IMG/VR virus record: IMGVR_UViG_3300046529_000758
Location: 1 to 40,398 of that record
DNA length: 40,398 nt
Reading direction: 5' to 3' (one strand)
Source: a virus
In this document: in pieces, positions 316-39,751 of the stretch
Numbering within the stretch: position 1 is the stretch's first letter
How the letters are laid out: each line of letters starts with the position of its first letter
Notes under the pieces: model-generated
Told to the model about the DNA's origin: nothing
What the model saw: only the letters and a program-made list of their open reading frames with translations
Database searches by the model: none
Program-made: the position numbers and the translations under genes

Positions 316-560
316 TTCGGCCTCGCCGCAGTGAAGCCCGCGCCGCGGGAGATCACGGCCATGAAGTTGCACCCGTCCTTTTCGATGTCGGTGGTCCCGC
401 CGCATTCCTCGCAACGCCCTGTCCGATAAAACTTGTTCTTCTCGGCCATGGTTTGCTTCTCGCCGCAGTGCACGCAATTGAACTGCTGGTGAACGTCCCA
501 GCCCTCGGCCACGCGATCGAAGGCGTTCTTGGACACCTCTTCGAAAGGGTGGAGCTTCAT
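312..560 (-). CDS. Small zinc-ribbon protein of the recombination operon
   Basis: An 82-residue protein with two CxxC pairs, C29/C32 (CVHC) and C50/C53 (CEEC), spaced as in a single zinc ribbon. No other domain is visible. It lies between the ERF and exonuclease genes, with 4-nt overlaps on both sides (its ATG within the ERF stop, its TGA within the exonuclease ATG), so it is cotranscribed and probably translationally coupled. A role with the recombinase pair or as a small regulator is possible, but only position and the zinc motif support it. Confidence 0.75.
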   Translation of the reverse strand: MKLHPFEEVSKNAFDRVAEGWDVHQQFNCVHCGEKQTMAEKNKFYRTGRCEECGGTTDIEKDGCNFMAVISRGAGFTAARPK

Positions 561-1162
561 GACATCCTGCGCTTCTTCTGCTCGAGCATGCTGATCGCGC
601 GTTTAAATTGTTCGACCGTCATCTCGGCGACCGAGGGCGCCCCGACAACCGCCAGGAAGGCGGTGAGGTTCGAGTCGGTATCGCGGACGAGCTGCTCGAC
701 GAAGGCGATCTGGTCGACGTCGATGAGCGGGCTTGCGGTGGACGCTGCGTTGCCGTCGTCGTCCTCGTCGGCGCCTGCGATGCCGACCAGCGAGAACAGG
801 GTGTAGCGCTTGGCGTAGGTGAGGGCCGAACCCATCTGCTGCGGGGTGAGCTTGGCGTAGGCCCCGACCGGCCAGGTCGCGTCCAGCGTCTGGCCTGAGA
901 CGGCGTGGATGAGGCTGGTGGTCAGCATCAGGATGTCGCCGTCGATATGGGTGATCTGCACCCACGCGACCCCGTGCTTCGACAATGGCCCGCGAATGGC
1001 CGCGATGCCGTCGGCGAGATTGGTGTATTTCGACTTGAAGTGCGGGTTCTCGGAGCCGCGGGCCGGGTTGCGGATTTCGCCCTGGGCCTTGGCGAGGGCC
1101 TCGGCCAATTTGCCGGCGGCGCCTGCGCGCTCGCTGAGCAGCGTCTCTTCGATATCGTTCAT
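557..1162 (-). CDS. erf: ERF-family single-strand annealing protein
   Basis: The protein has 201 residues. Its N-terminal half carries the ERF signature: 'NPHFKSKYTNLADGI', then 'PLSKHGVAWVQ', then 'GSALTYAKRYTLFSLVGIAG', followed by the acidic DEDDDGN stretch. ERF proteins (phage P22 Erf type) bind single-stranded DNA and anneal complementary strands after exonuclease resection, in the infected cytoplasm. An in-frame ATG 24 nt upstream exists, but the start at 1162 follows a strong ribosome site (AAGGGGG, about 6 nt away), so I use 1162. The C-terminal part (about 150-201) is less conserved, ends in KKRRMS and may contact DNA or a partner. A promoter/operator-like site lies just upstream (1188-1214). 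Confidence 0.9.
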   Translation of the reverse strand: MNDIEETLLSERAGAAGKLAEALAKAQGEIRNPARGSENPHFKSKYTNLADGIAAIRGPLSKHGVAWVQITHIDGDILMLTTSLIHAVSGQTLDATWPVGAYAKLTPQQMGSALTYAKRYTLFSLVGIAGADEDDDGNAASTASPLIDVDQIAFVEQLVRDTDSNLTAFLAVVGAPSVAEMTVEQFKRAISMLEQKKRRMS

Positions 1163-1187: not shown

Positions 1188-1214
1188 GTTGCGCTAACCG
1201 CACCGCATTGTCAA
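1188..1214 (-). promoter_or_regulatory. Promoter/operator-like unit upstream of erf
   Basis: On the minus strand TTGACA occupies 1214-1209. After 4 nt comes an imperfect 17-bp palindrome at 1188-1204 (plus strand GTTGCGCTAACCGCACC), one base from the GTTGCG-N5-CGCAAC pattern. The same TTGACA, 4-nt gap, palindrome order occurs at 2199-2225. A -10 box at 17 nt spacing would read CAACCA, a poor match, so the promoter call rests on the -35 and the repeated layout. Confidence 0.5.
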
Positions 1215-1224
1215 TAGGCTTCAG

Positions 1225-1450
1225 GCGCCTAACCATACCGCAGCCGACCAGACCCAACCGGACCCGACCATTCCCGAGCCCGCCACGCCCGGCCTGGCCC
1301 GTGCGGACGCGCCCCCTGCTTGCCCTGCCACGCCTTGCCTTGGCCAGCCAAGCCAACGCCGAGGCCAGCCAAGCCACGCCATGCCGCTGCGCGCCGGCCC
1401 CGACCCCGCCTCGCCTCGGCATGCCTCGCCGGAGCGAGCCCAGGCTCACC
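1225..1450. repeat. Irregular GGCnnGGC-type intergenic repeat tract (copy 1)
   Basis: The gap between erf and the gene upstream of it is made of irregular short units. On the minus strand these read as GGCATGGC, GGCTTGGC, GGCAAGGC and GGCGTGGC, with a near-duplicated unit around TTGGCTGGCC. No protein of normal composition is encoded: every frame gives repetitive Arg/Ala/Gly/Pro sequence. A second tract of the same style lies at 2086-2190 in the next gap of the same operon. Confidence 0.75.
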
Positions 1451-2060
1451 TAACGTCATAAGCGATAATGCCAAACCGTCCGAACGTCGGTCGAAAATCA
1501 GCCAAGCCAATCAACCGCCCAGCCTCTTCGATCGCCTGCCGAAAGGTGATCGGGTCGAGGTATTCGGCCAGAATGATCTGAAACTCAAAGGTCAATCGCC
1601 ATCCCGCCAACATGGCCGGGCGAACGCGGGTGATGCCCGCGCGCTGCACCATGACTCTGCGCTTGTCCAAATAATCCCAGTCAGTTTTCCCGAAGCTGGC
1701 CAGCGGCGTGAGCGAAACGATGGCGGCCTTGTATAAATCCTGCGCGCTCTTGCGCGGCGATCGCGGGTCCTGGCGGAACTTGGCGGCGCCGAGGATGGAC
1801 TGTCGCAGGTATTCGCCCGGCAGGCAGACCTCGCCTTCGGCGTTGCGGTACACATAGCTCTCGACATTGTCGCTTTTCTTGGCCTTCGAGCCTTTGGCGG
1901 CCTTGCCCTTCGCCTCAACGCCATCGACATTCCATCTATGAAACAGCAGGTCCGCTGACCCCTCGATCGTCACTGTGGCGATGTACGGCTCGCCAGCCTC
2001 GATGGTGACCTTGCCTGCATTGCTCACTTGTTCACTGTTCACTTTCACATTCTTATTCAT
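1446..2060 (-). CDS. Conserved phage protein of the recombination operon, function unknown
   Basis: The protein has 204 residues and starts MNKNVKVNSEQV. The frame stays open upstream, but that part is repeat-derived low-complexity sequence, and the ATG at 2060 is preceded by GGAGGAA at good spacing. Features in order: a beta-rich opening 'PYIATVTIEGSADLLFHRW', a Lys-rich linker (KGKAAKGSKAKK), a middle with 'GEVCLPGEYLRQSILGAAKF', and a C-terminal motif 'LIGLADFRPTFGRFGI'. I recognise this layout (FHRW, PGEY/R, DFRPxFGRF) from phage proteins encoded near annealing proteins, but I know of no assigned function. It is first in the leftward operon, behind a 17-bp operator and a TTGACA box. Confidence 0.8.
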   Translation of the reverse strand: MNKNVKVNSEQVSNAGKVTIEAGEPYIATVTIEGSADLLFHRWNVDGVEAKGKAAKGSKAKKSDNVESYVYRNAEGEVCLPGEYLRQSILGAAKFRQDPRSPRKSAQDLYKAAIVSLTPLASFGKTDWDYLDKRRVMVQRAGITRVRPAMLAGWRLTFEFQIILAEYLDPITFRQAIEEAGRLIGLADFRPTFGRFGIIAYDVR

Positions 2061-2198: not shown

Positions 2199-2225
2199 GT
2201 TGCTAGAGCAGCAACCCATTGTCAA
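2199..2225 (-). promoter_or_regulatory. Operator palindrome and -35 box for the leftward recombination operon
   Basis: A perfect 17-bp inverted repeat, GTTGCTAGAGCAGCAAC, occupies 2199-2215 (6-bp arms, 5-bp spacer). On the minus strand a consensus TTGACA lies at 2225-2220, 4 nt upstream of the palindrome, so the palindrome fills the -35/-10 spacer and -10 region, a classic repressor position. A -10 at 17 nt spacing reads CAACTT, which is weak. The divergent XRE gene starts at 2266, so it is the obvious candidate binder, for itself and for the recombination genes. Confidence 0.65.
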
Positions 2226-2265
2226 GCGACTTGCCAAAACGGTGCCGTGAGGGCATCTTTGCCTC

Positions 2266-2523
2266 ATGTCTTGGCCTGCTCCCCCCACCAAGTCCGACCG
2301 CGAGATCCTCGCTCATCATCCCAACGCCCGCCTCGGCCTGATTCGGGCGCGCGAAATGCGCGGCATCAGCCGCCCCGAGCTCGCGCGGCGGCTCGGCGTC
2401 AACCGCTCGCAGGTGTTCCGGTTCGAGACGGGCGAGTCGTCCCCGCCGCTGGCGTTGGCGCTCAGGATCATCGACCTGCTCGGGCCTGGCGCCACCTTCG
2501 ACATGTTCAGGACTGCGGCGTGA
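2266..2523 (+). CDS. XRE/Cro-type helix-turn-helix regulator
   Basis: The protein has 85 residues. Residues about 23-72 form a Cro/C1-type helix-turn-helix, with 'ISRPELARRLGVNRSQVFRF' as the core and 'ETGESSPPLALALRIIDLL' closing the five-helix fold. Such proteins bind short palindromes as dimers. It has no protease or dimerisation domain of the CI type, so it is closer to Cro or antitoxin-like regulators in size. The gene diverges from the recombination operon, with a 17-bp palindrome between them. The next gene's GTG overlaps its stop, making the regulator first in a rightward operon. Confidence 0.85.
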   Translation: MSWPAPPTKSDREILAHHPNARLGLIRAREMRGISRPELARRLGVNRSQVFRFETGESSPPLALALRIIDLLGPGATFDMFRTAA

Positions 2524-3820: not shown

Positions 3821-4069
3821 ATGTCAGATTCTAGGGATCTGAATGTCGTCCAGGGGCCACCGATTACGGTGATCGAAAAAAACAAGGGCGAGCAGTTTTG
3901 GATCCAAGTCAGGGAATTTCGAGGCCACAAGCTCCTGAACTGCCATGTCTGGTATCGGAGCGCTGATGGGCAAATGAGGCCAGGAAAGAGCGATTTAAGC
4001 GTAAAAGTTGAGAAAGCCAGAGATCTGTTAAGCGCGATGCAGAAGGTATTGACTGAAGCGGGATTTTAG
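3821..4069 (+). CDS. PC4/p15-like single-stranded-DNA-binding protein
   Basis: The protein has 82 residues. Residues about 25-78 match the PC4-like fold: a curved sheet 'FWIQVREFRGHKLLNCHVWY', a turn 'GQMRPGKSDLSVKVE' (the PGK-G/S-ISL motif of this family), then one helix 'KARDLLSAMQKVL'. PC4-like proteins dimerise and bind ssDNA or melted duplex. In eukaryotes they are transcription coactivators; bacterial and phage versions are thought to act in replication, recombination or transcription. The gene has a strong AAGGGAG ribosome site and is lower in GC (50% over 3841-3900 by hand count) than its neighbours, which suggests recent acquisition. An inverted repeat precedes it. Confidence 0.8.
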   Translation: MSDSRDLNVVQGPPITVIEKNKGEQFWIQVREFRGHKLLNCHVWYRSADGQMRPGKSDLSVKVEKARDLLSAMQKVLTEAGF

Positions 4070-5814: not shown

Positions 5815-8148
5815 ATGGGTACCTTTCTCCGGCCTACGCGGGTTTACGATTTCACGGCCTTTTCGCGTCGGACGCCTGCGTCGCCGGTTCCTGGCGATCG
5901 GCTGGACGCGCAGTTCAGCGCGCATGCGGATGCGATTGCGGAATTGCAGGCGGCGTTGGGTCGGGTTGACGAGGTTTTGCGGCGCCGGGACGAGGTGGTC
6001 GCGCCTGCGGTGTTGCGGCCATCGCCGGAGGAGGTCGAGGACTTCCGCTTGAAGGCGGCGAATGCGGATGCGGTCCTGGCGGAGGCGAGGACCGAGCTGG
6101 CTCGGGTTCGGGTTGAGGCGGCGCGGGCGCGAGAGGCTGCGGAGGACGCGCAGGCGAGGGCGGTAGCCGCGGCGCAGGCGGTTGAGCCGCCGGTCCCTAC
6201 GGAGGCGGCAGCCTCTGCAGTTCCGTTGGAGGCGACGAGCGCGCTCCTGGGGTACGGGGCGGGCGGGCCTTATGCGGTTGACGTTCCCGGCGCGACGGCG
6301 ACCTCGGCCGACTATGCTCAGGTGAGCATTGATTGGGCCGAGTTCATGGATGGGAACAGCACCATCCCGCCGAACATATTGGCGATCAACGCGATCAGCG
6401 GGGACCATTGGAGCTCGCGATGGTGGGCGAACCGGGCGGCGAGCGCGTTCGGGATGCTGGCGTGGTGGTACATGGGCGCGTGGCCCGGGATGCCGCCGAC
6501 GACGCCGAAGACCCCGACGGGGCAGCCTATCCCGGTTGGAGGAATGTTCTTTAACACCACGACCGGGACGATGATGGTGTGGAACGGCTCGACCTGGGTC
6601 AACGCCAGCGCGCCGCAGAAGGGGGTGACGGCCTCTTTATACTATGCGGCGACCGGGGGGCAGACGGCGTTCCCGTTGGGGACCGTCGATCGGCACGGAA
6701 ACACCTTTGCGTTTTCGGCGACGGTCCCCGAGGGGGTCGAGGTTTACATTGACGGCGCGGGCCGCCTCGAGCCGCAGTTTGACTATACGGTCAATTATGG
6801 GACCTCGACGGTGACGCTGGTGGCGGGAGCCCCTGCGGGGGCCATCGTGACGGTGGATGTCCTGGTTCCCGCCTTGGCGCTGACACCGTCGGGCAGCGCG
6901 AACACGCTTCTCATCAACGCGATTGTCCCCGACGGGACGACCACGGTGTTCTCGGGCCTGACCATTGCGGCGACGGGTGCGCTGGTCAGCGCGGCGAAGA
7001 GCGAGGAGCTGTTTGTTTCGGTCGACGGGGTCCCGCAGCAGCCGGGGGGCGCCTACACGGCGTCGGGGTCGAACATTACCTTCGCGGAGGCTCCCGCGGC
7101 GTCCTCTCTTATCTATATGGTGTGGTACGGGCCTCCGGTGCTGGCGGGGAGCGGCGGAGGGGGGATTGGCGAGGCCCCCAACGATGGGCAGTACTATGCT
7201 CGCCATAGCTTAAATTGGGCGGTGGCGCCCGGCGGGCTGACCGATGCGACGGTCGACGGCACGCTTTATGGGCGCAAGAGCGGGTCGTGGCAGCACGTCA
7301 CCCACAATGATCTCACCGATTGGGCGGCGACGATCGCGCCTTATGCGCCGTTGGCGAATCCGGTCTTCACCGGGGATCCCAAGGCCCCGACGCCGTCTCC
7401 TGGGGATAATGATACGTCGATTGCGACCACGGCGTTCGTGGCCACGGCGATCTCCGGCCTCGGAGGCGGGGGAGGGGGCATTGCGGACGCCCCCAACGAC
7501 GGGACGAGCTACGCCAGGAAGAGCCTTGGCTGGTCGCACCTGACCCACAACGACCTGACCGACTGGTCGACGGCCTTGGCTGGGTACATTCCGGTTGCAG
7601 GCGGGACCGCCACGGGGGCGTTGGCGGCGCCGGCGTTCAATTTGAATACCGGCGGTTCGACCTTGGGATCCTATTATTGGGATGGGGCCGACAATTCGCT
7701 CCATCTCCTGCATTCGGCCTCTGGCGGGACGGTCAAATTGGCCGCCGACGGTTCGTGCTCGATCAGCGGGGTGCTGAGCGCCGCGGGCGGGGTCCTGAGT
7801 GGAGGACTGACCGTCCAAGGGCCTGCGGATCTTAAGGTCCAGGCGGTGACCGCAGCCGCGACCACGGCAATTAATAGAAGTCTCGGCGAGAATGTCGCGC
7901 TGACCCTGGGCGTAGCGATCACCACGCTGAGCATATCCGGCTGGCCGGCGAGTGGGGTTACCGGCAAGGTCAGGTTGCTGATCACCAATACCGGAGGCAA
8001 TTCCATTGCTTGGCCGAGCGGGACCAAGTGGCCGGGCGGGACGGCGCCGACCCTGTCGGCCTCGGGCAAGGTCGATATCGTGCTGCTCATGTCCGACAAT
8101 GCCGGGAGCACGATCTACGGCTCGGTGGTCGGGCAAGACTATCGATGA
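5815..8148 (+). CDS. Tail fibre / tail spike-type structural protein
   Basis: A 777-residue protein. The N-terminus 'LRPTRVYDFTAFSRRTPASPVPGDRLDAQF' is the typical virion-attachment region of phage fibres. Residues about 40-135 are an Ala/Arg/Glu-rich coiled coil. Then follow beta-rich segments, including 'GGMFFNTTTGTMMVWNGSTWV', repeated 'APNDG..YAR.SL.W..LTHNDLTDW' modules (about 450-500 and 560-600) and 'PVFTGDPKAPTPSPGDNDTSIATTAFVATAI', a motif common in fibre repeats. The C-terminal 100 residues form a beta sandwich-like domain ending in GSVVGQDYR. It is expected to trimerise and sit at the tail tip or baseplate. The next gene starts inside its stop (ATGA), suggesting coupled production of a tip adhesin. 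Confidence 0.85.
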   Translation: MGTFLRPTRVYDFTAFSRRTPASPVPGDRLDAQFSAHADAIAELQAALGRVDEVLRRRDEVVAPAVLRPSPEEVEDFRLKAANADAVLAEARTELARVRVEAARAREAAEDAQARAVAAAQAVEPPVPTEAAASAVPLEATSALLGYGAGGPYAVDVPGATATSADYAQVSIDWAEFMDGNSTIPPNILAINAISGDHWSSRWWANRAASAFGMLAWWYMGAWPGMPPTTPKTPTGQPIPVGGMFFNTTTGTMMVWNGSTWVNASAPQKGVTASLYYAATGGQTAFPLGTVDRHGNTFAFSATVPEGVEVYIDGAGRLEPQFDYTVNYGTSTVTLVAGAPAGAIVTVDVLVPALALTPSGSANTLLINAIVPDGTTTVFSGLTIAATGALVSAAKSEELFVSVDGVPQQPGGAYTASGSNITFAEAPAASSLIYMVWYGPPVLAGSGGGGIGEAPNDGQYYARHSLNWAVAPGGLTDATVDGTLYGRKSGSWQHVTHNDLTDWAATIAPYAPLANPVFTGDPKAPTPSPGDNDTSIATTAFVATAISGLGGGGGGIADAPNDGTSYARKSLGWSHLTHNDLTDWSTALAGYIPVAGGTATGALAAPAFNLNTGGSTLGSYYWDGADNSLHLLHSASGGTVKLAADGSCSISGVLSAAGGVLSGGLTVQGPADLKVQAVTAAATTAINRSLGENVALTLGVAITTLSISGWPASGVTGKVRLLITNTGGNSIAWPSGTKWPGGTAPTLSASGKVDIVLLMSDNAGSTIYGSVVGQDYR

Positions 8149-14795: not shown

Positions 14796-14808
14796 CGGAG
14801 CAACCCCC

Positions 14809-17188: not shown

Positions 17189-17755
17189 ATGGCCAACCAT
17201 CAGCCCCCGAAACCCCCGCCCGGCAAGCCGCCGCAGCACACTCCCCCCAAGTCGACGGCGACGCACCAACCGCCCCCTGCCCCGCCGAGGCAGCCGACGC
17301 AGCCCGCCCCCCACCACGGCGAGCCTCAGCAACCGCTGCAGCCGCCGTTGCCGCCCGCGCAGTCGTCGCCGCCGCGGCAACCGGCCCCCGACCCGCCGCC
17401 AATGCCCGACGCGCCGCAGGGGCGCGACAACCCCTCGCGGGAGGATGACCCGAACGCTGCGGTGGCCCTCACCCCAGAGCAGGCGACGGGGCTCGTCACC
17501 ACCCCGCAACCGCCGAAGAAGTACCGCAGGCCTTTGCCCCAGCCCGGCGACAACGACTATGTCTCCGGCCAGCCCGTCAACGAGGAAGAGGCCGCGCGCG
17601 TCGAGCAGGAGGATGAGGAGCGCTACAACCGCGCCTTGGCCCTCGCCAGGGAGGCGGAGGCCAGACGGTCCCCCGCAGCCGCCAACCCGCCCCAGCGCGA
17701 GCAACACCCAGCCTCGCCCCCGCCCAGGAACCCTAAAGGAGATAAAGACAAATGA
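17189..17755 (+). CDS. Proline-rich disordered protein
   Basis: A 188-residue protein with an AAGGA ribosome site. The first 80 residues are Pro/Gln/Ala rich; residues about 85-165 are more ordered (PNAAVALTPEQATGLVT, EEEAARVEQEDEERYNRALALAREAE is a clear helix), then a basic tail. The gene's second and third reading frames are also open, as expected for GC-rich low-complexity sequence, but the ribosome site and overlap with the next ATG support this frame. No family recognised. Confidence 0.6.
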   Translation: MANHQPPKPPPGKPPQHTPPKSTATHQPPPAPPRQPTQPAPHHGEPQQPLQPPLPPAQSSPPRQPAPDPPPMPDAPQGRDNPSREDDPNAAVALTPEQATGLVTTPQPPKKYRRPLPQPGDNDYVSGQPVNEEEAARVEQEDEERYNRALALAREAEARRSPAAANPPQREQHPASPPPRNPKGDKDK

Positions 17756-22955: not shown

Positions 22956-23005
22956 CGTATGATGCGCTCGCCGCCACCACGGCGACAGACGCCATCAGAC
23001 GGTAG

Positions 23006-23029
23006 TTGACAACCGCATATGGATATGAT
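23006..23029 (+). promoter_or_regulatory. Promoter-like boxes with short spacing before the ParB-like gene
   Basis: TTGACA (23006-23011) and TATGAT (23024-23029) match both consensus boxes well but are only 12 nt apart, too short for a standard promoter. They lie in the 120-nt gap upstream of the ParB-like/radical SAM cassette, so an atypical or degenerate promoter is possible. Confidence 0.3.
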
Positions 23030-23075
23030 CGGTTGCCTACGCAGGCCGACTGTGGCCCGCGTGGAGGAACCGATT

Positions 23076-24146
23076 ATGACAAATGGAAACGGCAAGCAGC
23101 AAGTGTTCGAGACGATCATGCTGCACAAGCCGCCGCCGCTGAAAATTCAGCACGCGCGGGTCCCGACCGACAGGGTGAGGTTCGATACTGAGAACCCCAG
23201 GCTCAAGTACCAGAAGGAGCTCTTCCCGGATAAGACCGACAAGGAGCTTCTGTTCAAGCTCCCCGACACCAACTGGCTGATGAAGGACGTCGAGGAGAAG
23301 GGCGTCCTGGAGGCCATCTACGTCAAGGAGGAGCTCCTCAATGGCGTGGCTTCATTCGTGGTGATCGAAGGCAACCGCCGCACTGCAGTGATGCAGGAGC
23401 TGCAAGCCAAGCATCCTGATAACCCCAACTTCGCCTATATCCCGGCCAGGATCCTGCCGCCGGAGACGACGCCCGAGCAGGGCGCCATCCTGATGGCTTC
23501 CCGTCACGTCGCGGGGCTGATCAAATGGGACGCCCATGAGAAGGCGGGCCATATCTGGCACATGATCAACGTCCTGCACATTCCCGAGTCGGAGCTCATC
23601 AACACCCTGCACATGGGGGCGCCGGCGATCAAGAAGGCGTCCGAGGCCTACGGCCTGCTCGACCACTACAAGCACTGCGATGGCGGTAAATACGCCGCGC
23701 AGGCCGAAGGCAAGTGGTCGTTCTTCGCCGAGTTCATCAAGGTCAAGGAGTTCTACGAACGCCACAAGAAGGGCCAGGACTTCGACGATGACTTCTGCCG
23801 CTGGGTCGGCGACGGACGCATCCCGAAGGCCGAGGACGTGCGCGACCTGCCGGCGATCCTCAAGTCCGGGAAGGCTCGCAATCTCTTCTTCAATGAGCCG
23901 GCCGAGCACGCCTTCGAGAAGGCCAATGCAGTGGTCGACAAGTCCGACCCGAGCCGCCGCTCCAAGTTCTACAAGGACGTGGAAAACCTGATTGCCTCGG
24001 GCCGCGGCGCCTCGCTCAGCGACCTGACGGAGGCGGGCGACAACGAAGTCGCCCGCGACAATCTCCTCGAGGCGCATTCGGTCCTGTTGTCCTTCATGGA
24101 GAAGGCCGGCGTCCGCATCCCCGCCACCGCTCGCCGCGTGGCCTAA
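23076..24146 (+). CDS. ParB-like nuclease/Srx-fold protein
   Basis: A 356-residue protein; the ATG at 23076 follows GGAGG at 7 nt, so I prefer it to an earlier in-frame ATG at 23019. Residues about 22-125 match the ParB N-terminal (ParB/Srx) domain: 'VRFDTENPRLKY' and 'VIEGNRRTAVMQEL' with the GNRR box (99-102) that binds CTP or forms the active site in this fold. Residues about 150-290 are helical, including a possible helix-turn-helix 'IPESELINTLHMGAPAIKKASEAYGLLD'. No plasmid-partition partner ParA is present. Phage ParB-like proteins are also found as nucleases and with DNA-modification genes (DpdB, DndB-like). The radical SAM gene starts 2 nt after its stop. Confidence 0.8.
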   Translation: MTNGNGKQQVFETIMLHKPPPLKIQHARVPTDRVRFDTENPRLKYQKELFPDKTDKELLFKLPDTNWLMKDVEEKGVLEAIYVKEELLNGVASFVVIEGNRRTAVMQELQAKHPDNPNFAYIPARILPPETTPEQGAILMASRHVAGLIKWDAHEKAGHIWHMINVLHIPESELINTLHMGAPAIKKASEAYGLLDHYKHCDGGKYAAQAEGKWSFFAEFIKVKEFYERHKKGQDFDDDFCRWVGDGRIPKAEDVRDLPAILKSGKARNLFFNEPAEHAFEKANAVVDKSDPSRRSKFYKDVENLIASGRGASLSDLTEAGDNEVARDNLLEAHSVLLSFMEKAGVRIPATARRVA

Positions 24147-24148
24147 CC

Positions 24149-25162
24149 ATGCATGTCCGCATCACCCAGCTCGACGGGAAACTGCCGAACCTGGCGCTGA
24201 TGCGGCTCGCTCACTACCATCGCGAGCGGGGGGACACGGTGCATTTCATCAAGTCCACCGCCCGCGATGCCTTCGAGCCGGCTTATGACCGCGTCTATGG
24301 CTCGGCGATCTTTCAGCAACCGAAGTCAATAGCCCGGATCGAAGAGCTCAAGGCGCAATTCCCCGGCGCTATCATCAGCGGCACCGGGATCGGCTCGCCC
24401 CACCTCACGGTCGAGGACGTCATCGGCGAGCACGACGGCGTCAGCTACGACGGCTATAAGTTCGATGGCTCGATCGGCTTCACGCAACGCGGGTGCCGGC
24501 TGAAGTGCGGCTTCTGCGTCGTCCCGCGCAAGGAGGGCAAGAACCGCACCGTCGCGACGATCGCCGACATCTGGCGCGGCGCCCCATACCCGAAGCACAT
24601 TCACCTGCTCGACAATGACTTCTTTGGCCAACCGCGCGAGCAATGGGAAGCCAGGGTTCAGGAGATCATCGACGGCGGTTTCCAGATCTGCCTCAACCAG
24701 GGCATCAATACCCGGATGATCGACGATGTCTCGGCGGCGGCGCTGAAGCGCATGGGCTACTGGGACGATTCTTTCAAGGTCAAGCGCCTCTACACCGCCT
24801 GGGACAACATCGGCGACGAGGGGCGGTTCTTCAAAGGCGTCGACACCCTCGAGGCTCACGGGATCCCGCCGTCGCACCTCACCGTCTACATGCTGATCGG
24901 CTATGACAAGCGCGAGACATGGGAGCGCGTGCTCTATCGGTTCGACAAGATGCTGGCGCGTCGCATCCGCCCCTACCCGATGGTCTACGGCGATCGCAAT
25001 GGCCTTCTGCCGCTCGGCGGGTGCAATCAGCGCGTCGCCCATCGGACGCTCGGCGAGTTCCAGCGCTACGCCATCCGCCGGCTCTACTCCATCTGTCGGT
25101 TCGAGGACTACGATCGCGGCAATCGCGACACGCGCGGCCGCCCCGATCTGTTTGCGTCGTGA
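24149..25162 (+). CDS. Radical SAM protein with cobalamin-domain-like N-terminus
   Basis: A 337-residue protein. The N-terminus 'HVRITQLDGKLPNLALMRLAHYHRERGDTVHF' followed by 'YDRVYGSAIFQ' and 'IISGTGIG' is a Rossmann-like segment resembling the B12-binding-type domain of many radical SAM enzymes, though no DxHxxG box is visible. The radical SAM iron-sulfur motif is C116-RLK-C120-GF-C123, followed by 'HLLDNDFFGQPREQW', 'GGFQICLNQGINTRMID' and 'TVYMLIGYDKRETWERVLYRFDKM', normal TIM-barrel elements. I recognise this family from phages and prophages with the 'PNLALMKLS.(Y/W)H...GD.V' opening. Its substrate is unknown to me. It lies between ParB-like and unknown genes and overlaps the next gene by GTGA. 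Confidence 0.85.
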   Translation: MHVRITQLDGKLPNLALMRLAHYHRERGDTVHFIKSTARDAFEPAYDRVYGSAIFQQPKSIARIEELKAQFPGAIISGTGIGSPHLTVEDVIGEHDGVSYDGYKFDGSIGFTQRGCRLKCGFCVVPRKEGKNRTVATIADIWRGAPYPKHIHLLDNDFFGQPREQWEARVQEIIDGGFQICLNQGINTRMIDDVSAAALKRMGYWDDSFKVKRLYTAWDNIGDEGRFFKGVDTLEAHGIPPSHLTVYMLIGYDKRETWERVLYRFDKMLARRIRPYPMVYGDRNGLLPLGGCNQRVAHRTLGEFQRYAIRRLYSICRFEDYDRGNRDTRGRPDLFAS

Positions 25163-25620
25163 GACGCGAGCAGCACGATCGCCACTGCATCATGAACGTC
25201 GCCTGGCGGCCGTGCCGGATCCAGGCGATCCGCGACGATCAGATGATCCTCGTCAATGAGGCCGGCCAGCAGGTCTACTCCCCGCCGCTGTCGGAAATGG
25301 AGTGGGAAGCCTATTGCGACGAGGCGGCGCGATGGCTCGCCAAGGAAGGCAAGCGCCTCGAGAAGGAGAGGCAGGAAGACGCCGAGGCTTCGAAGCGGAT
25401 GGTGGTCGCCGAACTTCTGGGTGAGCGGATCTCGGCGCAGGAGTACTATCGCGCGATGCTGGCGCGTGAGCAGCTCCTGGCCAGCGGCTACGGTTCGACC
25501 GACGACCTCGAGCGCGAGGTGGTGCTGGTCGACCTCGAAGACACCGACCCGGTCCCTATCCTCGAGGTCGATTGCCAGATGACGCTGGACGAGCTCCGGA
25601 GGAAAAATTCAGAGTTCTAA
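25159..25620 (+). CDS. Third gene of the ParB/radical SAM cassette, unknown function
   Basis: A 153-residue protein from GTG 25159, overlapping the radical SAM stop; an ATG at 25192 would give 142 residues. The first part 'NVAWRPCRIQAIRDDQMILVNEAGQQVYSPPLSEMEWEAY' is beta-rich, then a long charged helix 'DEAARWLAKEGKRLEKERQEDAEASKRMVVAELL', then an acidic tail (VVLVDLEDTDPVPILEVD). No family recognised. Tight coupling to the radical SAM gene suggests shared function. Confidence 0.65.
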   Translation: MRREQHDRHCIMNVAWRPCRIQAIRDDQMILVNEAGQQVYSPPLSEMEWEAYCDEAARWLAKEGKRLEKERQEDAEASKRMVVAELLGERISAQEYYRAMLAREQLLASGYGSTDDLEREVVLVDLEDTDPVPILEVDCQMTLDELRRKNSEF

Positions 25621-25626
25621 CAATGC

Positions 25627-25643
25627 GTTGCGAGACGCGCAAC
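25627..25643. promoter_or_regulatory. 17-bp palindromic operator-like site
   Basis: GTTGCGAGACGCGCAAC is a perfect inverted repeat (6-bp arms, 5-bp spacer) in the 89-nt gap between the cassette and the scaffold gene. It has the same architecture as the sites at 2199-2215 and 37656-37672. I see no convincing promoter around it: a downstream TTGCCC and ATAAGG pair is weak. As RNA it would be a short hairpin without a U-tract. Confidence 0.6.
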
Positions 25644-25709: not shown

Positions 25710-26756
25710 TTGGAAGACACGACGTCCGGTGTCGGCGAAACCCCCAGCACCTCGACCCCGGCGCCGGCCGGTTCCGAGGCCCCCGCCACTACTGACGTAT
25801 CTCCGGGGTCGTCGCCCGATACTTCCGGCCATGAACCGTCTACGGCTGAAAGCCGCAAGTCGCTCTTGGACGTCGTCCGTGAGGCCGCCCCCAGACGGGG
25901 TGAGCCTGGCCAGACGGCGCCCGGCGACCTGCGGGGAGCTCCGCCAGCTCCAGGCGCGGCACAACCAGGAGAAGACCTAGGCCCGCTGACCCAGCAGGAA
26001 TACGACGCCTACGTACCCCGTACGCAAAAGCGCATTCGCCAATACCAAGAGCAGATCAGGAAACTGAACGACCACATCGGTCCGCTCGAGAACGCGGCGA
26101 AGACTACGACCGAGCTACAAAATTTCTTGCGGCAATCTGACATTGCAAAAGAAGATTTTGGGCTCGTTCTCGACCTGGCCGCGGCGATGAGGCGCGGCGA
26201 CTTCAAGACGTTTCTTGAAGGGGTCGGCCCCTACGTCAAACTGGCGCAGGAGAGCCTCGGGATCCAATTGCCACCTGATCTGGCCCAGGCGGTCCAGATG
26301 GGGCATATGACCCAGGATGCGGCGCGGTACACGGCCCAGGTGAGAGGTTCGCAAGCTTTGGCTGCGAGCCAACTCCAACGGGTCCAACAGGAGTCGTCGC
26401 AACGCGACTACGCCACTCAGGTGCAACACTTCCAAGCCTCGGTGGCCGGCGCGGTTTCGCAATGGGAACAGCAGGTCAAAAGAGCCGATCCTGATTATGC
26501 GCGCAAAGAGCCCGTTGTGCGGGACCTCTTGCACGCCGTCGTCCAGGAACGTGGTCCGCCGCGTTCGCCCGCAGAGGCTGTCGAGATCGCTCGGCAAGCC
26601 TATGAGCGAGCGAACGCCGTCGTTAGCCGCTTCGTCCCGGCCCCGCGGTCAACGCACCAGGTCCCGAGCAGCATCAATCGGGTCAACGGCGCGCGGGCGG
26701 AGCCACGGAGCCTCAAGGAGGCTGTCCATCTGGCGATCGAGCGTGGAGCGCGTTGA
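25710..26756 (+). CDS. Scaffolding protein
   Basis: A 348-residue protein from TTG 25710 with GAGGA upstream. It sits directly before the capsid gene, the usual place of the scaffold. The first 90 residues are Pro/Ser/Thr/Ala rich and disordered. The middle is helical and Gln/Lys/Glu rich (TQKRIRQYQEQIRKLNDHIGPLE; residues about 105-135 look like coiled coil), and the end is basic (RAEPRSLKEAVHLAIERGAR), as in scaffolds that bind capsid through a basic C-terminus. The role rests on position and composition, not on a clear sequence match. Confidence 0.75.
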   Translation: MEDTTSGVGETPSTSTPAPAGSEAPATTDVSPGSSPDTSGHEPSTAESRKSLLDVVREAAPRRGEPGQTAPGDLRGAPPAPGAAQPGEDLGPLTQQEYDAYVPRTQKRIRQYQEQIRKLNDHIGPLENAAKTTTELQNFLRQSDIAKEDFGLVLDLAAAMRRGDFKTFLEGVGPYVKLAQESLGIQLPPDLAQAVQMGHMTQDAARYTAQVRGSQALAASQLQRVQQESSQRDYATQVQHFQASVAGAVSQWEQQVKRADPDYARKEPVVRDLLHAVVQERGPPRSPAEAVEIARQAYERANAVVSRFVPAPRSTHQVPSSINRVNGARAEPRSLKEAVHLAIERGAR

Positions 26757-26785: not shown

Positions 26786-27895
26786 ATGGCCTTCACGGCT
26801 GGTGAAATCACCAATATCGCCAATGCGGCGTTGGACTACTACTGGGCGCGGCCGGAAGAGTTCTTCCAGACCCTGCAAGACAAACCTCTCCTCAAACTCT
26901 GCGAAACCAGCCCCAAGAAATTCCCCGGGGGCAAGGGCAATATCTCAGTCGCGCTGCACGGGAAGTTCGGCGATGGCAGCGGCAACGATGTCCTGAAGGG
27001 GTACACCCACAATGACACCGTCGCGTTCTTCACTCCCGCCAATATCGTTCGCGGCAACTACCCATGGCGCGAGCATCACCTCGGCCTGACGTTGACCCAT
27101 ACCGAACTGAAAATGGACGGCATCTCCGTGGTCGACACCAATGGAGAGGAGACGGTCGAGCACACCGATCGCGACGAGACGGTGCTCGTGAATTTGTTTC
27201 AGGATAAACTTTTCGAGCTCGGCGAGCAGTATAGCCGCGGAATGAATGGTCTGTTGTGGGGCGACGGCACCGCCGATCCGAAAGGGCTCGCCGGCATGCA
27301 GTTCCTGATCTCGGCTGATCCCTCTGTCGGCACCGTCGCTGGCCTCGACCAGTCGCTGGCGGCCAACTCCTGGTGGAGGAACAGGGCGCGCACCACCGCC
27401 TTCGGCATCAAGGTCGGCGGCACGCCGGCGCTGGCGGCCTGGGGTGGAGACTCGATCACCACCAACCCGGCCAACGGCGGCGCGCTGATCACCGTGCTGC
27501 AGACCGAGTACCGCCAGCTCATCCGCTACGGCGGCAAGCCGACGATCGCGCTGTGCGGCTCGGACTTCATCGGCGCGATGGAGACTGAGGTGAGGGCCAA
27601 CGGCAACTACAGCATGACCGGCTTCTCGTCGTCACGCGACGTGGCGGTCGGAGCGCTGTCGTACATGGGAACCAACTTCACCTATGACCCGACCCTCGAC
27701 GACCTCGGCTTTAGTAAACGATGCTATTGGTTCGACCCCAAAAAGGTATTTCTAGTACAAATGACAGATGAATGGAGAAAGGACCATACCCCAGCGCGGC
27801 CCGCTAATCAATTTGTATTATATAAGTCAATCACGAGTACTGGGCAGATGGTGGCAACTCAGCGCAACAGTAGCCTCGTACTCGAAATTAAATGA
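26786..27895 (+). CDS. Major capsid protein
   Basis: A 369-residue protein following the scaffold gene. It opens 'MAFTAGEITNIANAALDYYW', an alpha-helical N-arm, and contains 'LHGKFGDGSGNDVLKGYTHNDTVAFFTPANIVRGNYPWREHHLGLTLTHTELKMDGISV' (in parts) and 'FQDKLFELGEQYSRGMNGLLWGDGTADPKGLAGMQFLIS', as in capsid proteins of podovirus-like phages with the HK97 fold. Length is typical for a protein without a cleaved delta domain. No strong ribosome site precedes it. The last 60 codons (from about 27709) switch from GC-rich to AT-rich synonymous codons (27601-27660: 40/60 G+C; 27721-27780: 22/60), ending next to an HNH gene. Confidence 0.9.
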   Translation: MAFTAGEITNIANAALDYYWARPEEFFQTLQDKPLLKLCETSPKKFPGGKGNISVALHGKFGDGSGNDVLKGYTHNDTVAFFTPANIVRGNYPWREHHLGLTLTHTELKMDGISVVDTNGEETVEHTDRDETVLVNLFQDKLFELGEQYSRGMNGLLWGDGTADPKGLAGMQFLISADPSVGTVAGLDQSLAANSWWRNRARTTAFGIKVGGTPALAAWGGDSITTNPANGGALITVLQTEYRQLIRYGGKPTIALCGSDFIGAMETEVRANGNYSMTGFSSSRDVAVGALSYMGTNFTYDPTLDDLGFSKRCYWFDPKKVFLVQMTDEWRKDHTPARPANQFVLYKSITSTGQMVATQRNSSLVLEIK

Positions 27896-28580: not shown

Positions 28581-28958
28581 ATGGACTGGGTTACAGCAAA
28601 GATCGCCCTCGGCGGCGAAGCCACGCAGGTGCTCTATCGCGGCCCTGACCGGCCCGTGTCGTGGCCGGAGGTGCTGGTCCTGCAGGCCCTGCACGGCGAA
28701 AGCAATGTGTTCGACGCGGACTTTCTCATGTCGCAGCCGTCGAACATCCAGGAAGAGAAGAACCGCCTCCTCGGCCTGTACGGCAAGGATATCGTCGACC
28801 AGTGCTATCCCGGCTCGAGGCCGGCGATGGAGCTGCAGTGGCCAGGCGAACGCGATGAGAGCGCCGCCGTCCAGAAGCGCGCCCCTCGGCGGCCGCTGCC
28901 GAGCGCCGACGACGATGAGCCGGTGCTCGACATGACGCGAGCGCAGGGGAGCGCATGA
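28581..28958 (+). CDS. Conserved-type small head protein, unknown function
   Basis: A 125-residue protein starting directly after the HNH stop. It reads 'DWVTAKIALGGEATQVLYRGPDRPVSWPEVLVLQALHGESNVFD' then 'LLGLYGKDIVDQCYPGSRPAMELQWP' and ends in an acidic Pro/Arg-rich tail. Its place between capsid and connector genes is where podovirus-like phages carry short conserved proteins. No function is known to me. Confidence 0.7.
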   Translation: MDWVTAKIALGGEATQVLYRGPDRPVSWPEVLVLQALHGESNVFDADFLMSQPSNIQEEKNRLLGLYGKDIVDQCYPGSRPAMELQWPGERDESAAVQKRAPRRPLPSADDDEPVLDMTRAQGSA

Positions 28959-35418: not shown

Positions 35419-37394
35419 CCCTGGGTTTTGTCCCGGACGCGAAGGCTCCCGCGCCAACCCCGAAAACCGGAACGACGCCGGATGGCGGGACAGGTTCAGG
35501 CAACAACCTTCAATTCATCCCGGACCCGGTCCCGGAGGGTTGGGGAGGGTGGGCCTTGCGCAATGCGGAGGCTGGCGCGGAGGCTGGCGGCAAACTTCTC
35601 GCGCGCACTGGGGTGCGTCTCGCGACGGCGTTGCCGAACCTTCTGGTTGGCGGCTCGCAGGCGATCGGCGCGGGGGCGGAAAAACTCGGCGTTCCTTTAG
35701 TGCAGACGCCGGAGCTGGGGCCGCTCGACACTTGGTTGAGCAAGCTTGGCATCCCTGAGCATACGGGAAACCTCTACGACAATGGTCAGCAGCTCACGGG
35801 CCAGGGCGCTCCCGCGCAACCGATGCCCAGCGAAGACCTCATCAATAAGCTTCACCTGCAGATGGATCCGAACGCCAGCACGGCGATGAAGGTGGCGGAT
35901 TACGTCGCGCCGTTCGTTCTTGGCGGTCTTCGCGGGGGCGTAAACCGTGTCAGCGAAGCATCAGGCTTGGTCAATAAGACAGCCCAAGGTCTGGGCTACC
36001 TGACCGGCGCAGGCCTCGACGCCGCCGGTAACTATGTCGGCTCGGATATCGGGCAATATATTGGCGGCCCGACTGGCGCATTTGTCGGTTCGCTATTCGG
36101 TGGAGGCGTGCGGCCGCTCGTTCAGCGAGGGGTCGGCTATGCGGGGCAGAAGACGTACGGCGCCCCTGAAGGCGGCGACGTTTTCGACGCCATGACCAGC
36201 CAGCAAGGACCGAATGCGTTTCCGACCTTCGGCCAGGTCACCGGCAATGAGGGCAAGCAATTCGAGAAGGGCGTCGGCTCGATTCCAATCCTGAAGTCTG
36301 GGGTTCAGGCGGCGCGGGACACTGCAGAGCAGGGGATGGCTAACTCAGTCGCCACCGGCGTCAGCGAACTCGGGGACCGCGCTCCCAGCCTCGGGCCGGT
36401 CGGCAAGGATGTCACCGGAACGAACATCATCGGCGCCGCGCGCGACACGAACCTGCGGTTGGGCGAGGAGCGCAGCGCCGAGCAGCAGGCGCTCGAGGAC
36501 GCGATCGGAACGAACAGGCCGACGAATGTCTCGCCGTTGGTCGAGACAATGAGCCGGCTCTCGAACGATAGCGCTGCCCCGATCCAGCGGGTCGTCGCGC
36601 CGCGCACCGCCGATCTTTATAAGTCCTTGAATGCGGGACCGGCCGGCCCAGAGGATCTGACCGCCCCTTACGGCCACCTCAAGGTGCTGCGGACGGACCT
36701 TGGCGAAAAGACGGTGGCCACTGACCCGATGAAAGGGCCGCCTCTGATTGAGGCCCGCCAGGGCTACACTGACGCCATGCGACAAGCGGCCCATGAGGCT
36801 GACCAAGGGCCTGAGTTCGACGCCGCCAACCAGCGCTATACGGCCTGGAAGAAGGTGCAGGAGCCATGGCTCGATCTGCAGGGCGGAAGGCTCGAGTCTG
36901 GGGCGCCGCAAGTCCACCCAGGGCCGATCGCAGGCCGCGCGGACGCCATGGTCGGAACAGATCCCGGCTATCTCGCGACGACGCACGAACTTCTCGGCGA
37001 GCCCGTTGCGCGCTCCGCGCTTGCGGATGTCCTGAGCCGACAGGGCCGGATCAGCGAACGGTTTACGCCGTCGCAATGGGCGAAAGACTACGGTAGCGTC
37101 AACGATCCAGCGAAAGCATATATTGCGGCGCACGCGCCGGCGGCCGTGCCCTATTTCGAGAATGCCGCAACGGGGGGCAGGGCGTTCGATCTCGCGCCGG
37201 AACGGCCTGGGCAGAGCAATGCCATGGGCGGGGTCGCGGCCACGGCGGCGCTCTTGGCCAAGTATCCGCGACTGGCGGTTGCGCTCGCGGGCGGAATGGA
37301 GACGCCGTCGGTGATCCGCGCGATGGCGGGCCGCACGGATATTCCGGCGGTGGTCGCTCAGTATCTGTTAAGGCAGGGGGCGGCGCAGCGCTAA
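35415..37394 (+). CDS. Large internal virion / DNA-injection protein
   Basis: A 659-residue protein overlapping the preceding stop (ATGA). Residues about 40-110 are small-residue helices (AEAGAEAGGKLLARTGVRLATALPNLLVGGS in parts), followed by 'DYVAPFVLGGLRGGVNRVSEASGLVNK' and a Gly-rich region 'GYLTGAGLDAAGNYVGSDIGQYIGGPTGAFVGSLFGGG' in parts, consistent with membrane insertion. The C-terminal half is helical and polar. Composition and place fit P22 gp16/gp20-like injection proteins. Its 3' end overlaps the leftward membrane gene by 27 nt. Confidence 0.65.
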   Translation: MTLGFVPDAKAPAPTPKTGTTPDGGTGSGNNLQFIPDPVPEGWGGWALRNAEAGAEAGGKLLARTGVRLATALPNLLVGGSQAIGAGAEKLGVPLVQTPELGPLDTWLSKLGIPEHTGNLYDNGQQLTGQGAPAQPMPSEDLINKLHLQMDPNASTAMKVADYVAPFVLGGLRGGVNRVSEASGLVNKTAQGLGYLTGAGLDAAGNYVGSDIGQYIGGPTGAFVGSLFGGGVRPLVQRGVGYAGQKTYGAPEGGDVFDAMTSQQGPNAFPTFGQVTGNEGKQFEKGVGSIPILKSGVQAARDTAEQGMANSVATGVSELGDRAPSLGPVGKDVTGTNIIGAARDTNLRLGEERSAEQQALEDAIGTNRPTNVSPLVETMSRLSNDSAAPIQRVVAPRTADLYKSLNAGPAGPEDLTAPYGHLKVLRTDLGEKTVATDPMKGPPLIEARQGYTDAMRQAAHEADQGPEFDAANQRYTAWKKVQEPWLDLQGGRLESGAPQVHPGPIAGRADAMVGTDPGYLATTHELLGEPVARSALADVLSRQGRISERFTPSQWAKDYGSVNDPAKAYIAAHAPAAVPYFENAATGGRAFDLAPERPGQSNAMGGVAATAALLAKYPRLAVALAGGMETPSVIRAMAGRTDIPAVVAQYLLRQGAAQR

Positions 37395-37616
37395 ATGACG
37401 ATCCATCCAGGCATTGAACCCATCCATCCAGACGTCAGCGTCCTGCTTTACGGGTGCGCGGACGCCGCGCGGCTTGCAGATCCAGGTCATCAAGGCGCCA
37501 GCCGCGATAAGTGGCCCATAGAACAGCCAGTACATGGCATAGATCAGAGGGACAGCGAGCAGCCCCAGGGCGAGCATGCCTACCCAGGTCAGGATAAAGA
37601 TTGCGATAAAGGACAC
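37368..37616 (-). CDS. Small two-TM membrane protein, leftward
   Basis: An 82-residue protein from GTG 37616 with GGAG about 8 nt upstream. TM1 is about residues 2-20 (SFIAIFILTWVGMLALGLL) and TM2 about 22-45 (VPLIYAMYWLFYGPLIAAGALMTWI), then a polar basic and acidic tail. It is antisense to the 3' end of the 35415 gene (27 nt overlap). A promoter and 17-bp operator lie upstream (37656-37700). It is the only leftward gene outside the recombination operon. It could act in immunity or superinfection exclusion, but function is unknown. Confidence 0.6.
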   Translation of the reverse strand: MSFIAIFILTWVGMLALGLLAVPLIYAMYWLFYGPLIAAGALMTWICKPRGVRAPVKQDADVWMDGFNAWMDRHLALRRPLP

Positions 37617-37655
37617 GTCGAGGCTCCAGGAAAAATTGCGGCATGGCTTAAGTGC

Positions 37656-37700
37656 GTTGCGCCGTTCGCAACATATACGAGCCTAAGTCCCCTTCCGCAA
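37656..37700 (-). promoter_or_regulatory. Promoter and 17-bp operator for the leftward membrane gene
   Basis: On the minus strand TTGCGG (37700-37695), 17 nt, then TATATG (37677-37672) give reasonable -35 and -10 boxes. The perfect palindrome GTTGCGCCGTTCGCAAC (37656-37672) begins at the last -10 base and covers the likely start site. Its architecture equals the sites at 2199-2215 and 25627-25643. Confidence 0.6.
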
Positions 37701-37827
37701 GACCCGGAGAGGCAGACAGCCCATCCATGCGGCGTGAGGTCCGCCCGGCAATATGCGCCCAAGCGGTGCGTTACGTCAGACCGTATCCACGCGCTGCCAT
37801 TTTCCCCGGCTGGCCAGACCGTCCGTC

Positions 37828-37853
37828 GGACCATCTCTGTGGTCCCTTGTTTT
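37828..37853 (+). terminator. Terminator-like hairpin after injection-protein gene
   Basis: GGACCA (37828-37833) pairs with TGGTCC (37840-37845) around TCTCTG, followed by C-TTGTTTT. Stem is short but the U-rich tail is good. It would end transcripts from the head/ejection block. Confidence 0.5.
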
Positions 37854-38100
37854 CGCCGGTGGTCCGGCTTGGTTCTCCTTACAAGGCGCGAGTTCTGGAC
37901 GCCTCACGGCGTTCGGCTCGGAAGGGGTGAAGAAGCCCGGTCGTCTACACGCGGGGACGCGCCGCGCTTCGGGCTAAGGTGGAAACCAGCTCGATCGGCC
38001 CTCGAATGGAGCCGGGCCGCCATCTTGCTCCTGTCAAAGAGAGGGGTTATTTCTCCTGACAGTGGTTCGACCGATGGCCTCGCATTGGTTGGTCGAATCC

Positions 38101-38138
38101 GGCCGCGCCGGCTTAGCGACGGCGCGGCCATCTTTTGT
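38101..38138 (+). terminator. Strong intrinsic terminator upstream of SleB/M15 gene
   Basis: GGCCGCGCCG (38101-38110) and CGGCGCGGCC (38120-38129) form a perfect 10-bp stem with a 9-nt loop, followed by ATCTTTTGTT. It is well formed in the plus direction only. It separates the ejection-protein block from the peptidoglycan hydrolase gene. Confidence 0.75.
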
Positions 38139-38173
38139 TCCCCATTTCATCCCATCGCGCAAGGGGGCAGCTG

Positions 38174-39751
38174 ATGCCCCTCTCTCCGGCAGCGCGCGAT
38201 CTGGTGATCCGGGTGATCCTGGCCGAGGCCGAGGGCGAGGGGCCGGAGGGCCAGCTCGCGGTCGCCAACGTCATCAACAACCGCTCGCTCAGCGGCGCCT
38301 GGGGGGATCGCGAGACGGGCGGCCTGACCCGGCTCCTGACCTCCAAGGGCCAGTTCGCGGCGCCCAAGAACGTCAGCCAAGACGATCCGATGTATCGGCA
38401 GGTCGCGGCGATCGTCGACCGCATGGCGACAACGGGTGCGCCTGACAACACCGGCGGGGCGACGCACTTTTATGCCCCGCAGGGGATGCAGCCTGTCGGG
38501 CGCGTCCCGGACTGGGCCGTTGGCCGGCAGGGGCGGAAGATCGGCAACCAGCTGTTTTACAGCCTGCCCCTGAACGCCTCGAACACCGCGGGCGCGGTCG
38601 ATCTCCACGCGCCCCCGCCAGGGGCCGCGCCAGGAGGATCTGCCAAGGATGACGGCTCGAAGGCCTTTCTCTCGAGCCTCAGCGCCCACACCGACCGGCC
38701 TGGCGACACCGCGAACCTCAACCCGCAATTTGCGACCAGGCTCGCCTCGGCGATCAAGCAGGCGCAGGCCGCGGGCCTCAATGTCAGCCTCGAGTCGGCC
38801 TTCCGGGAGCCGGGGCAACTGAAGGAAAAGGGGGATACCAGCCAGGCCTCGGCCTATGACGCCGGCGGCAATAGCTCGCACTCCTATGGGCTGGCGGTCG
38901 ATATCCGCGGCCTCGACGGGCCGAATGGCCCCATTACCCAGCGGTGGGCGCAGATCGCGCAGGCCAACGGCCTCAATAACCCTTACGGCGTCGGCAACGC
39001 CAAGGAGTTCAACCACTGGCAATTGCCTGCGCAGCCGCTCGAGCGCACTCCCCAACTCCTGGCGTCGCTCAAGGCCGCCAAGGCGAGCGGGGACGTGAAC
39101 GCCGTCTGGAGCGCTTATTCGGGAGCGTCTCCCGAGAGCCAGGTCGCGACCCGGCAGAGCTATCCTCCGGTGGCCTCGGCGGGGGCAGCGCCAGCCCCGG
39201 CCCCTGCGGCGCCCGCTGACGTGCCTGCGGCTCAGGCGCAGCCAGTGTCGGCCAAGGCGCCTGCAGGCCAGCCAGCGGCCTCGCTTAAGGCTTCTGACGC
39301 CAATGCGCGCTATCAGGTCCTGCAGGGCATGACGACAGGCGGAGGCGGGCAGGGCGGCCGCAACCCGTTCCTGTACACCGCCATGAACCTTGCGCCTGGC
39401 GCGGGAACGCCCGCAGCGCCCGCGCCTGCCGCCCAGACCGCGCGGCCTGACTTGGCGCAGCGCGCTCCGCTCGACCAGGCCCCTCAGCCTCCGGCGCGTC
39501 CCGCGAACCTCGGTTCTCAACCCACGACCACGGTGGTCACGCCGCCCGAGCGGCCAGGCTCGCCGATGTCCTCGCTCGTTCCGAACTGGGGCGCGACCGT
39601 TCCGAATGATCCGAACACGTTGCCGGGCCGCGACGTCAACAATGAGCTCGCGATGACGCCTGGCGGCCCATCGATGGGCTATCCTGCAGTGACCAACCCT
39701 TTTGCCGACAGCATGCAGCGGTTGCTGCAGGGCCTGTTTCCAACCCGGTGA
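38174..39751 (+). CDS. Two-domain peptidoglycan hydrolase: SleB-like plus M15 peptidase
   Basis: A 525-residue protein from ATG 38174 (AAGGGGG upstream; an earlier in-frame ATG at 38135 is less likely). Residues about 7-130 match SleB/Hydrolase_2: 'VIRVILAEAEGEGPEGQLAVANVINNR', 'ATHFYAPQGMQPVG' and 'KIGNQLFYSLP'. Residues about 185-290 match M15 zinc peptidases: 'SAFREPGQ', 'SSHSYGLAVDIRG' with His236 and Asp243, and 'KEFNHWQL' with His281. The last 200 residues are Ala/Pro rich and disordered. It could cut glycan and peptide links, from inside the virion during entry or at lysis. It follows internal virion genes but lies beyond a terminator. Confidence 0.8.
   Translation: MPLSPAARDLVIRVILAEAEGEGPEGQLAVANVINNRSLSGAWGDRETGGLTRLLTSKGQFAAPKNVSQDDPMYRQVAAIVDRMATTGAPDNTGGATHFYAPQGMQPVGRVPDWAVGRQGRKIGNQLFYSLPLNASNTAGAVDLHAPPPGAAPGGSAKDDGSKAFLSSLSAHTDRPGDTANLNPQFATRLASAIKQAQAAGLNVSLESAFREPGQLKEKGDTSQASAYDAGGNSSHSYGLAVDIRGLDGPNGPITQRWAQIAQANGLNNPYGVGNAKEFNHWQLPAQPLERTPQLLASLKAAKASGDVNAVWSAYSGASPESQVATRQSYPPVASAGAAPAPAPAAPADVPAAQAQPVSAKAPAGQPAASLKASDANARYQVLQGMTTGGGGQGGRNPFLYTAMNLAPGAGTPAAPAPAAQTARPDLAQRAPLDQAPQPPARPANLGSQPTTTVVTPPERPGSPMSSLVPNWGATVPNDPNTLPGRDVNNELAMTPGGPSMGYPAVTNPFADSMQRLLQGLFPTR

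Follow-up and report, generated by a model that had tools for sequence, protein, structure and literature searches.

Lambda-like repressors exclude RNA polymerase from a promoter at the spacer and -10 element or at the -10 element and start, and in phiC31, with its conserved inverted repeats, and in P1, with its C1 operators, one repressor acts at many dispersed promoter sites. The stretch of viral DNA analyzed here, 40,398 nt in length and referred to throughout as the window, carries a scattered set of symmetric sites whose sequences and repressor family differ from those of phiC31 and P1. Operator scatter under one regulator is a known kind of phage control, and this probable regulon is a fresh example of it.

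The likeness to OL and OR, the sites of lambda CI and Cro, lies in 17-bp imperfect dyads placed over promoter elements with the gene of a small XRE regulator adjoining. In the window, the symmetric operator stands in register with a -35 box or overlaps a -10 box, and the XRE gene adjoins the operators and has a site at its own promoter, as is also the case in the related genome IMGVR_UViG_3300046533_000670 (G001; 47.8 kb, with a 127-bp repeat shared by the contig ends). Unlike those at OL and OR, the sites in the window and G001 are single, have a different sequence, and extend to the promoters of capsid and membrane genes. As for the divergent CI gene and integrase of a lambda-like switch, no CI-like gene, S24 peptidase or tyrosine integrase was found in G001 or in the window, which lacks about 8.5 kb present in G001; the arrangement as found is therefore not a complete lysogeny switch.

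The stoperators of Cluster A mycobacteriophages are asymmetric, are oriented with transcription, number about 24 per genome, and lie mostly away from promoters (PMC6550527), and the lytic phage D29, in which part of the repressor region has been lost, still has its repressor sites (PMC6550527; PMC5712189). The window resembles the Cluster A phages (the L5 operators and stoperators, and D29) in having many related intergenic sites with a consensus that drifts between relatives. Unlike stoperators, however, the window sites are symmetric, few, and all located at promoter-like elements, and judged on sequence they are not stoperators.

Palindromes at promoter elements in the window

Exactly three copies of the pattern GTTGC-N7-GCAAC are present in the window, against a mean of 0.07 and a maximum of 1 in first-order Markov copies of it, and across the whole window the looser GTTG-N9-CAAC returns the same three places only. 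Each perfect palindrome is 17 bp long with 6-bp arms, and the spacers differ. All three lie outside genes, in the non-coding DNA that makes up about 8% of the window on our hand-made gene map (p ~5e-4), and no further perfect copy falls within a gene. The first-pass annotation had listed these three copies with their arms and differing spacers, and had called them intergenic and rarer by chance than seen, all of which holds; it had also listed a one-mismatch copy at 1188. When up to one mismatch is allowed, six sites are found in the window where 1.5 are expected, and by count alone the 1188 copy is not significant. We accept it as real because it stands in the TTGACA register and has a perfect copy at the equivalent place in G001. 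The one-mismatch matches at 17365 and 40066 were rejected as chance copies, since they lie inside long ORFs used as genes in the hand-made map.

Table 1 Proposed operators, regulator and target genes in the window
Feature	Position	Strand	Details
ERF single-strand annealing protein, target gene	557..1162	-	PF04404, 71.7 bits
Operator copy with 1 mismatch, ERF promoter	1188..1204	-	Minus strand GGTGCGGTTAGCGCAAC; -35 TTGACA 1214-1209; -10 position CAACCA 1191-1186; perfect in G001 at 22813
p204, target gene	1446..2060	-	phrog_4652 (function unassigned family); absent from G001
Perfect operator, leftward p204 promoter	2199..2215	-	-35 TTGACA 2225-2220; -10 position CAACTT 2202-2197
Degenerate operator with 2 mismatches, XRE gene's own promoter	2241..2257	+	TTGCCA 2231-2236, 4-nt spacing; place and spacing alike in G001
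85-aa XRE/HTH_3 protein, proposed binder (Cro-like)	2266..2523	+	PF01381, 38.6 bits (cut-off 23)
Perfect operator, upstream of scaffold-position/capsid operon	25627..25643	+	CTAACA 25617-25622; identical in G001 (45635), G005 and G006
Scaffold-position gene, first of capsid operon, target	25710..26756	+	No family match itself
Major head protein, directly after scaffold-position gene	26786-27895		phrog_9953
Small hydrophobic (membrane-like) gene, target	37435..37644	-	From ORF list and sequence; no family match; start probably GTG 37620
Perfect operator overlapping -10 of leftward promoter	37656..37672	-	-10 TATATG 37677-37672; TTGCGG 37700-37695; geometry kept in G001 and G007

At three of the sites (1188, 2199, and 25627) the palindrome begins 4 nt downstream of the -35 box (TTGACA, TTGACA, and CTAACA, respectively), fills the -35/-10 spacer, and overlaps the -10 position with its right arm, a geometry that we call class I. 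The minus-strand sequence preceding the 1188 and 2199 sites is TTGACAAT, with TTGACA ending 4 nt upstream, and the 25627 site has CTAACAAT on the plus strand in the same 4-nt register; beyond the ERF promoter come AAGGGGGA, which resembles a Shine-Dalgarno sequence, and the ATG at 1162. TTGACA occurs six times on the two strands of the window, twice in the operator register, and a scan for the class I promoter-operator gives four matches in the window where 0.03 are expected. The fourth class I case, which was absent from the first-pass annotation, is the promoter of the XRE gene, TTGCCA-AAAC-GGTGCCGTGAGGGCATC (2231-2257), which departs from the consensus at two bases; its counterpart in G001 is TTGCCA-AAAC-GATGCATCAGGGGCATC. 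The promoter elements around the sites were read by eye, and the -10 boxes are weak at the class I promoters.

The 37656 site has the second geometry. On the minus strand it lies at TTGCGG-N17-TATATG, facing the small membrane gene, and the operator begins with the final G of the -10 box. No promoter was returned for 37300-38300 by a sigma-70 consensus scan. We conclude that the palindromes are very probably promoter operators for a small phage repressor.

Two non-coding features were observed beside the sites. The gap from the 37656 site to the endolysin gene contains a candidate structured ncRNA of about 460 nt (37678-38140), 82% identical to a stretch of the relative G007 (L104, 9097-9567) and absent from G001. 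This candidate folds better than shuffles (z -3.3) and matches no Rfam family, and its terminal stem is terminator-like and shows a compensatory pair change. Additionally, degenerate period-5 repeats (GGYNN on the sense strand) flank p204 at 1215-1445 and 2065-2198, with lag-5 identities of 0.53 and 0.45, where the window as a whole gives 0.26, and similar repeats (lag-5 identity 0.42) stand upstream of the 60%-identical p204 homologue of phage DSL-LC04.

The palindromes in relatives and other phages

G001 carries four perfect sites, three of them at the positions of window sites, and its XRE protein is 87% identical to that of the window; sites and protein are thus both present in this relative, in keeping with the first-pass annotation, which had tied one to the other. 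The G001 counterpart of the 37656 promoter is TTGCCG-N17-TATATG, and one more G001 site, at 28586, lies at TTGAAC-N17-TATATG ahead of a gene for 76 aa. The more distant IMGVR_UViG_3300045120_000249 (G007) lacks GTTGC palindromes. Where the 37656 site aligns, it carries GTTGGAATTACCCCAAC, a GTTGG-N7-CCAAC in the same 17-bp frame with the same flanks and the promoter TTGCGG-N17-TATATG, and before its scaffold-position gene stands GTTGTGGCATGCCCAAC; a GTTGG copy at 14800 lies inside an ORF and is probably due to chance. As read from these alignments, the place of the operator is constant and its half-site changes between relatives, from GTTGC to GTTGG. G007 also has five HTH_3 matches, and its main immunity genes are accompanied by TTCAC-N5-GTGAA-like palindromes; one of its five XRE proteins shares 46% identity with that of the window across 56 residues. 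In distant relatives, the DNA ahead of the scaffold-position gene showed no 17-bp palindrome of the GTTGC kind.

The surroundings of the 25627 site differ among these genomes. In G008 (L063, near 7185-7225) the equivalent border has an inverted repeat with 12-bp arms, GTGTTGCGTGTC-N16-GACACGCAACAC, and a cassette (22957-25620) between the portal-like and scaffold-position genes is present in the window and G001 and not in G007, where the two genes are ~110 bp apart.

The promoter-operator TTGACA-N4-GTTGCG-N5-CGCAAC has matches in nine IMG/VR contigs. As at lambda OL and OR, the sites in G004, G034, and G036 flank CI- and Cro-like genes: in G004, four sites surround genes for a CI-like protein of 200 aa and a Cro-like protein of 87 aa, with a promoter-operator at 7169 that is nearly identical to the window's at 2199, and in G034 and G036 the sites lie on both sides of the CI-like gene, with the Cro-like gene divergent. 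Some matching contigs have a 265-aa repressor-like protein near the sites, read as S24-type by eye, and G032 has six dispersed sites, among them those beside the genes for a RecB-like nuclease and a small HTH-like protein. With a looser pattern the raw IMG/VR counts show nothing, because its 69 loci are no enrichment over the 77 of a rearranged control, and only clustering and adjoining XRE genes separate real sites from chance. Extra palindrome copies near the loci number 23 for the real pattern and 4 for the control, and an XRE gene lies within 900 bp at 11 of the 69 loci against none of the 77 controls, where the HTH profile took its seeds partly from six of the 11 and the other five are independent.

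At one locus, L175, an in-register operator precedes a gene, divergent from a CI-like gene, whose 72-aa product is homologous to the window XRE protein (42% identity across 64 aa, with a C-terminal D-x-F-R-T motif in common); homology and position place the window XRE protein in the Cro role. A search with an alignment of the XRE subfamily returned four loci, namely G001, L175, G007, and an unrelated AT-rich contig (L298), which has an XRE relative and no such palindrome. Scanning a genome collection for the promoter-operator gave 31 loci in random-looking taxa, identified no host or lysogen, and revealed a second nearby site only at L120. Literature searches for a published GTTGC operator returned nothing usable.

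The likely binder and its rivals

We consider it probable that the palindromes are Cro/CI-type operators through which a phage XRE repressor acts at five places in the genome, with the 85-aa XRE protein (XRE85) as the likeliest binder. XRE85 matches the XRE/HTH_3 family above the curated Pfam cut-off, and it is favored because it is the sole HTH_3 protein in the window, as its homologue is in G001, because its own promoter carries a weakened in-register site, and because its L175 homologue is in the Cro position. These points support the first-pass proposal that one regulator, most simply the XRE protein at 2266, serves distant units, and one phage XRE regulator would be the most economical binder. 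We infer the role of XRE85, and the five XRE genes of G007 together with its changed half-site weaken the assignment. A recognition-helix code was rejected, as the helices do not sort by half-site. Also rejected as a binder was p204, whose homologue in phage DSL-LC04 is annotated as an HTH regulator, since G001 has no p204 yet keeps the sites. Elsewhere in the window, an 82-aa protein (3821-4069) has a match to PC4 (transcriptional coactivator p15) that exceeds the Pfam cut-off.

A dimer bound at the ERF, p204, XRE, and capsid promoters would cover the spacer and -10, one bound at the membrane-gene promoter would overlap the -10 and start region, and occupancy in either geometry would exclude RNA polymerase. 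We infer both repression, as the sign of control, and its timing: XRE85 would shut down the recombination genes and p204, would hold back transcription of the capsid and membrane genes, and, through the degraded 2241 site, would weakly limit its own synthesis.

As the window and G001 show neither S24 peptidase nor tyrosine integrase, the latter being present in G002, G007, and G008, the sites could instead be operators bound by the CI of a related resident prophage, in which case the phage has lost its own CI and integrase and is subject to foreign immunity. In other phages this operator is associated with CI-like proteins, and D29 provides a published precedent (PMC5712189). We nevertheless think this unlikely, as the phage keeps a Cro-sized regulator with a site at its own promoter, so that self-regulation suffices, and the genome-collection scan found no lysogen with matching sites. 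That unrelated phages with different repressors have the GTTGC half-site and -35 register in common could also point to a host regulator rather than a phage protein. Such a binder is very improbable, however, given that the half-site differs between close relatives at the same promoter, that the sites in other phages cluster at phage repressor genes, and that the taxa returned by the genome scan were scattered and revealed no host regulon.

With their 6-bp stems and 5-nt loops, the palindromes might act not as DNA sites but as RNA hairpins, serving as attenuators or processing sites; the 25627 copy does come after the stop codon of the previous gene, and G008 has the longer GTGTTGCGTGTC hairpin at that border. 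We give this reading hardly any credence, as no T run follows the palindromes, the loops vary freely, and the palindromes hold a fixed place relative to promoter hexamers and not to stop codons or starts; the predicted start of the membrane-gene promoter even falls within the palindrome.

A probable dispersed regulon in an uncultured phage group

Control by XRE85 through these operators could allow one regulator to co-switch early, capsid, and membrane-gene operons that lie far apart. A more speculative and rather doubtful extension is that, in a phage that lost its CI and tyrosine integrase, a single Cro-sized regulator on early and structural promoters acts as a genome-wide lytic timer, whose half-site evolves jointly at several promoters between relatives (GTTGC to GTTGG). 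The sites offer a testable regulon for an uncultured phage group for which no close reference phage was found. Furthermore, the relatives provide a natural series in which the operator changes while the promoters stay in place, useful for following the drift of immunity specificity, and lysogens with matching repressors may be able to block phages that have these sites.
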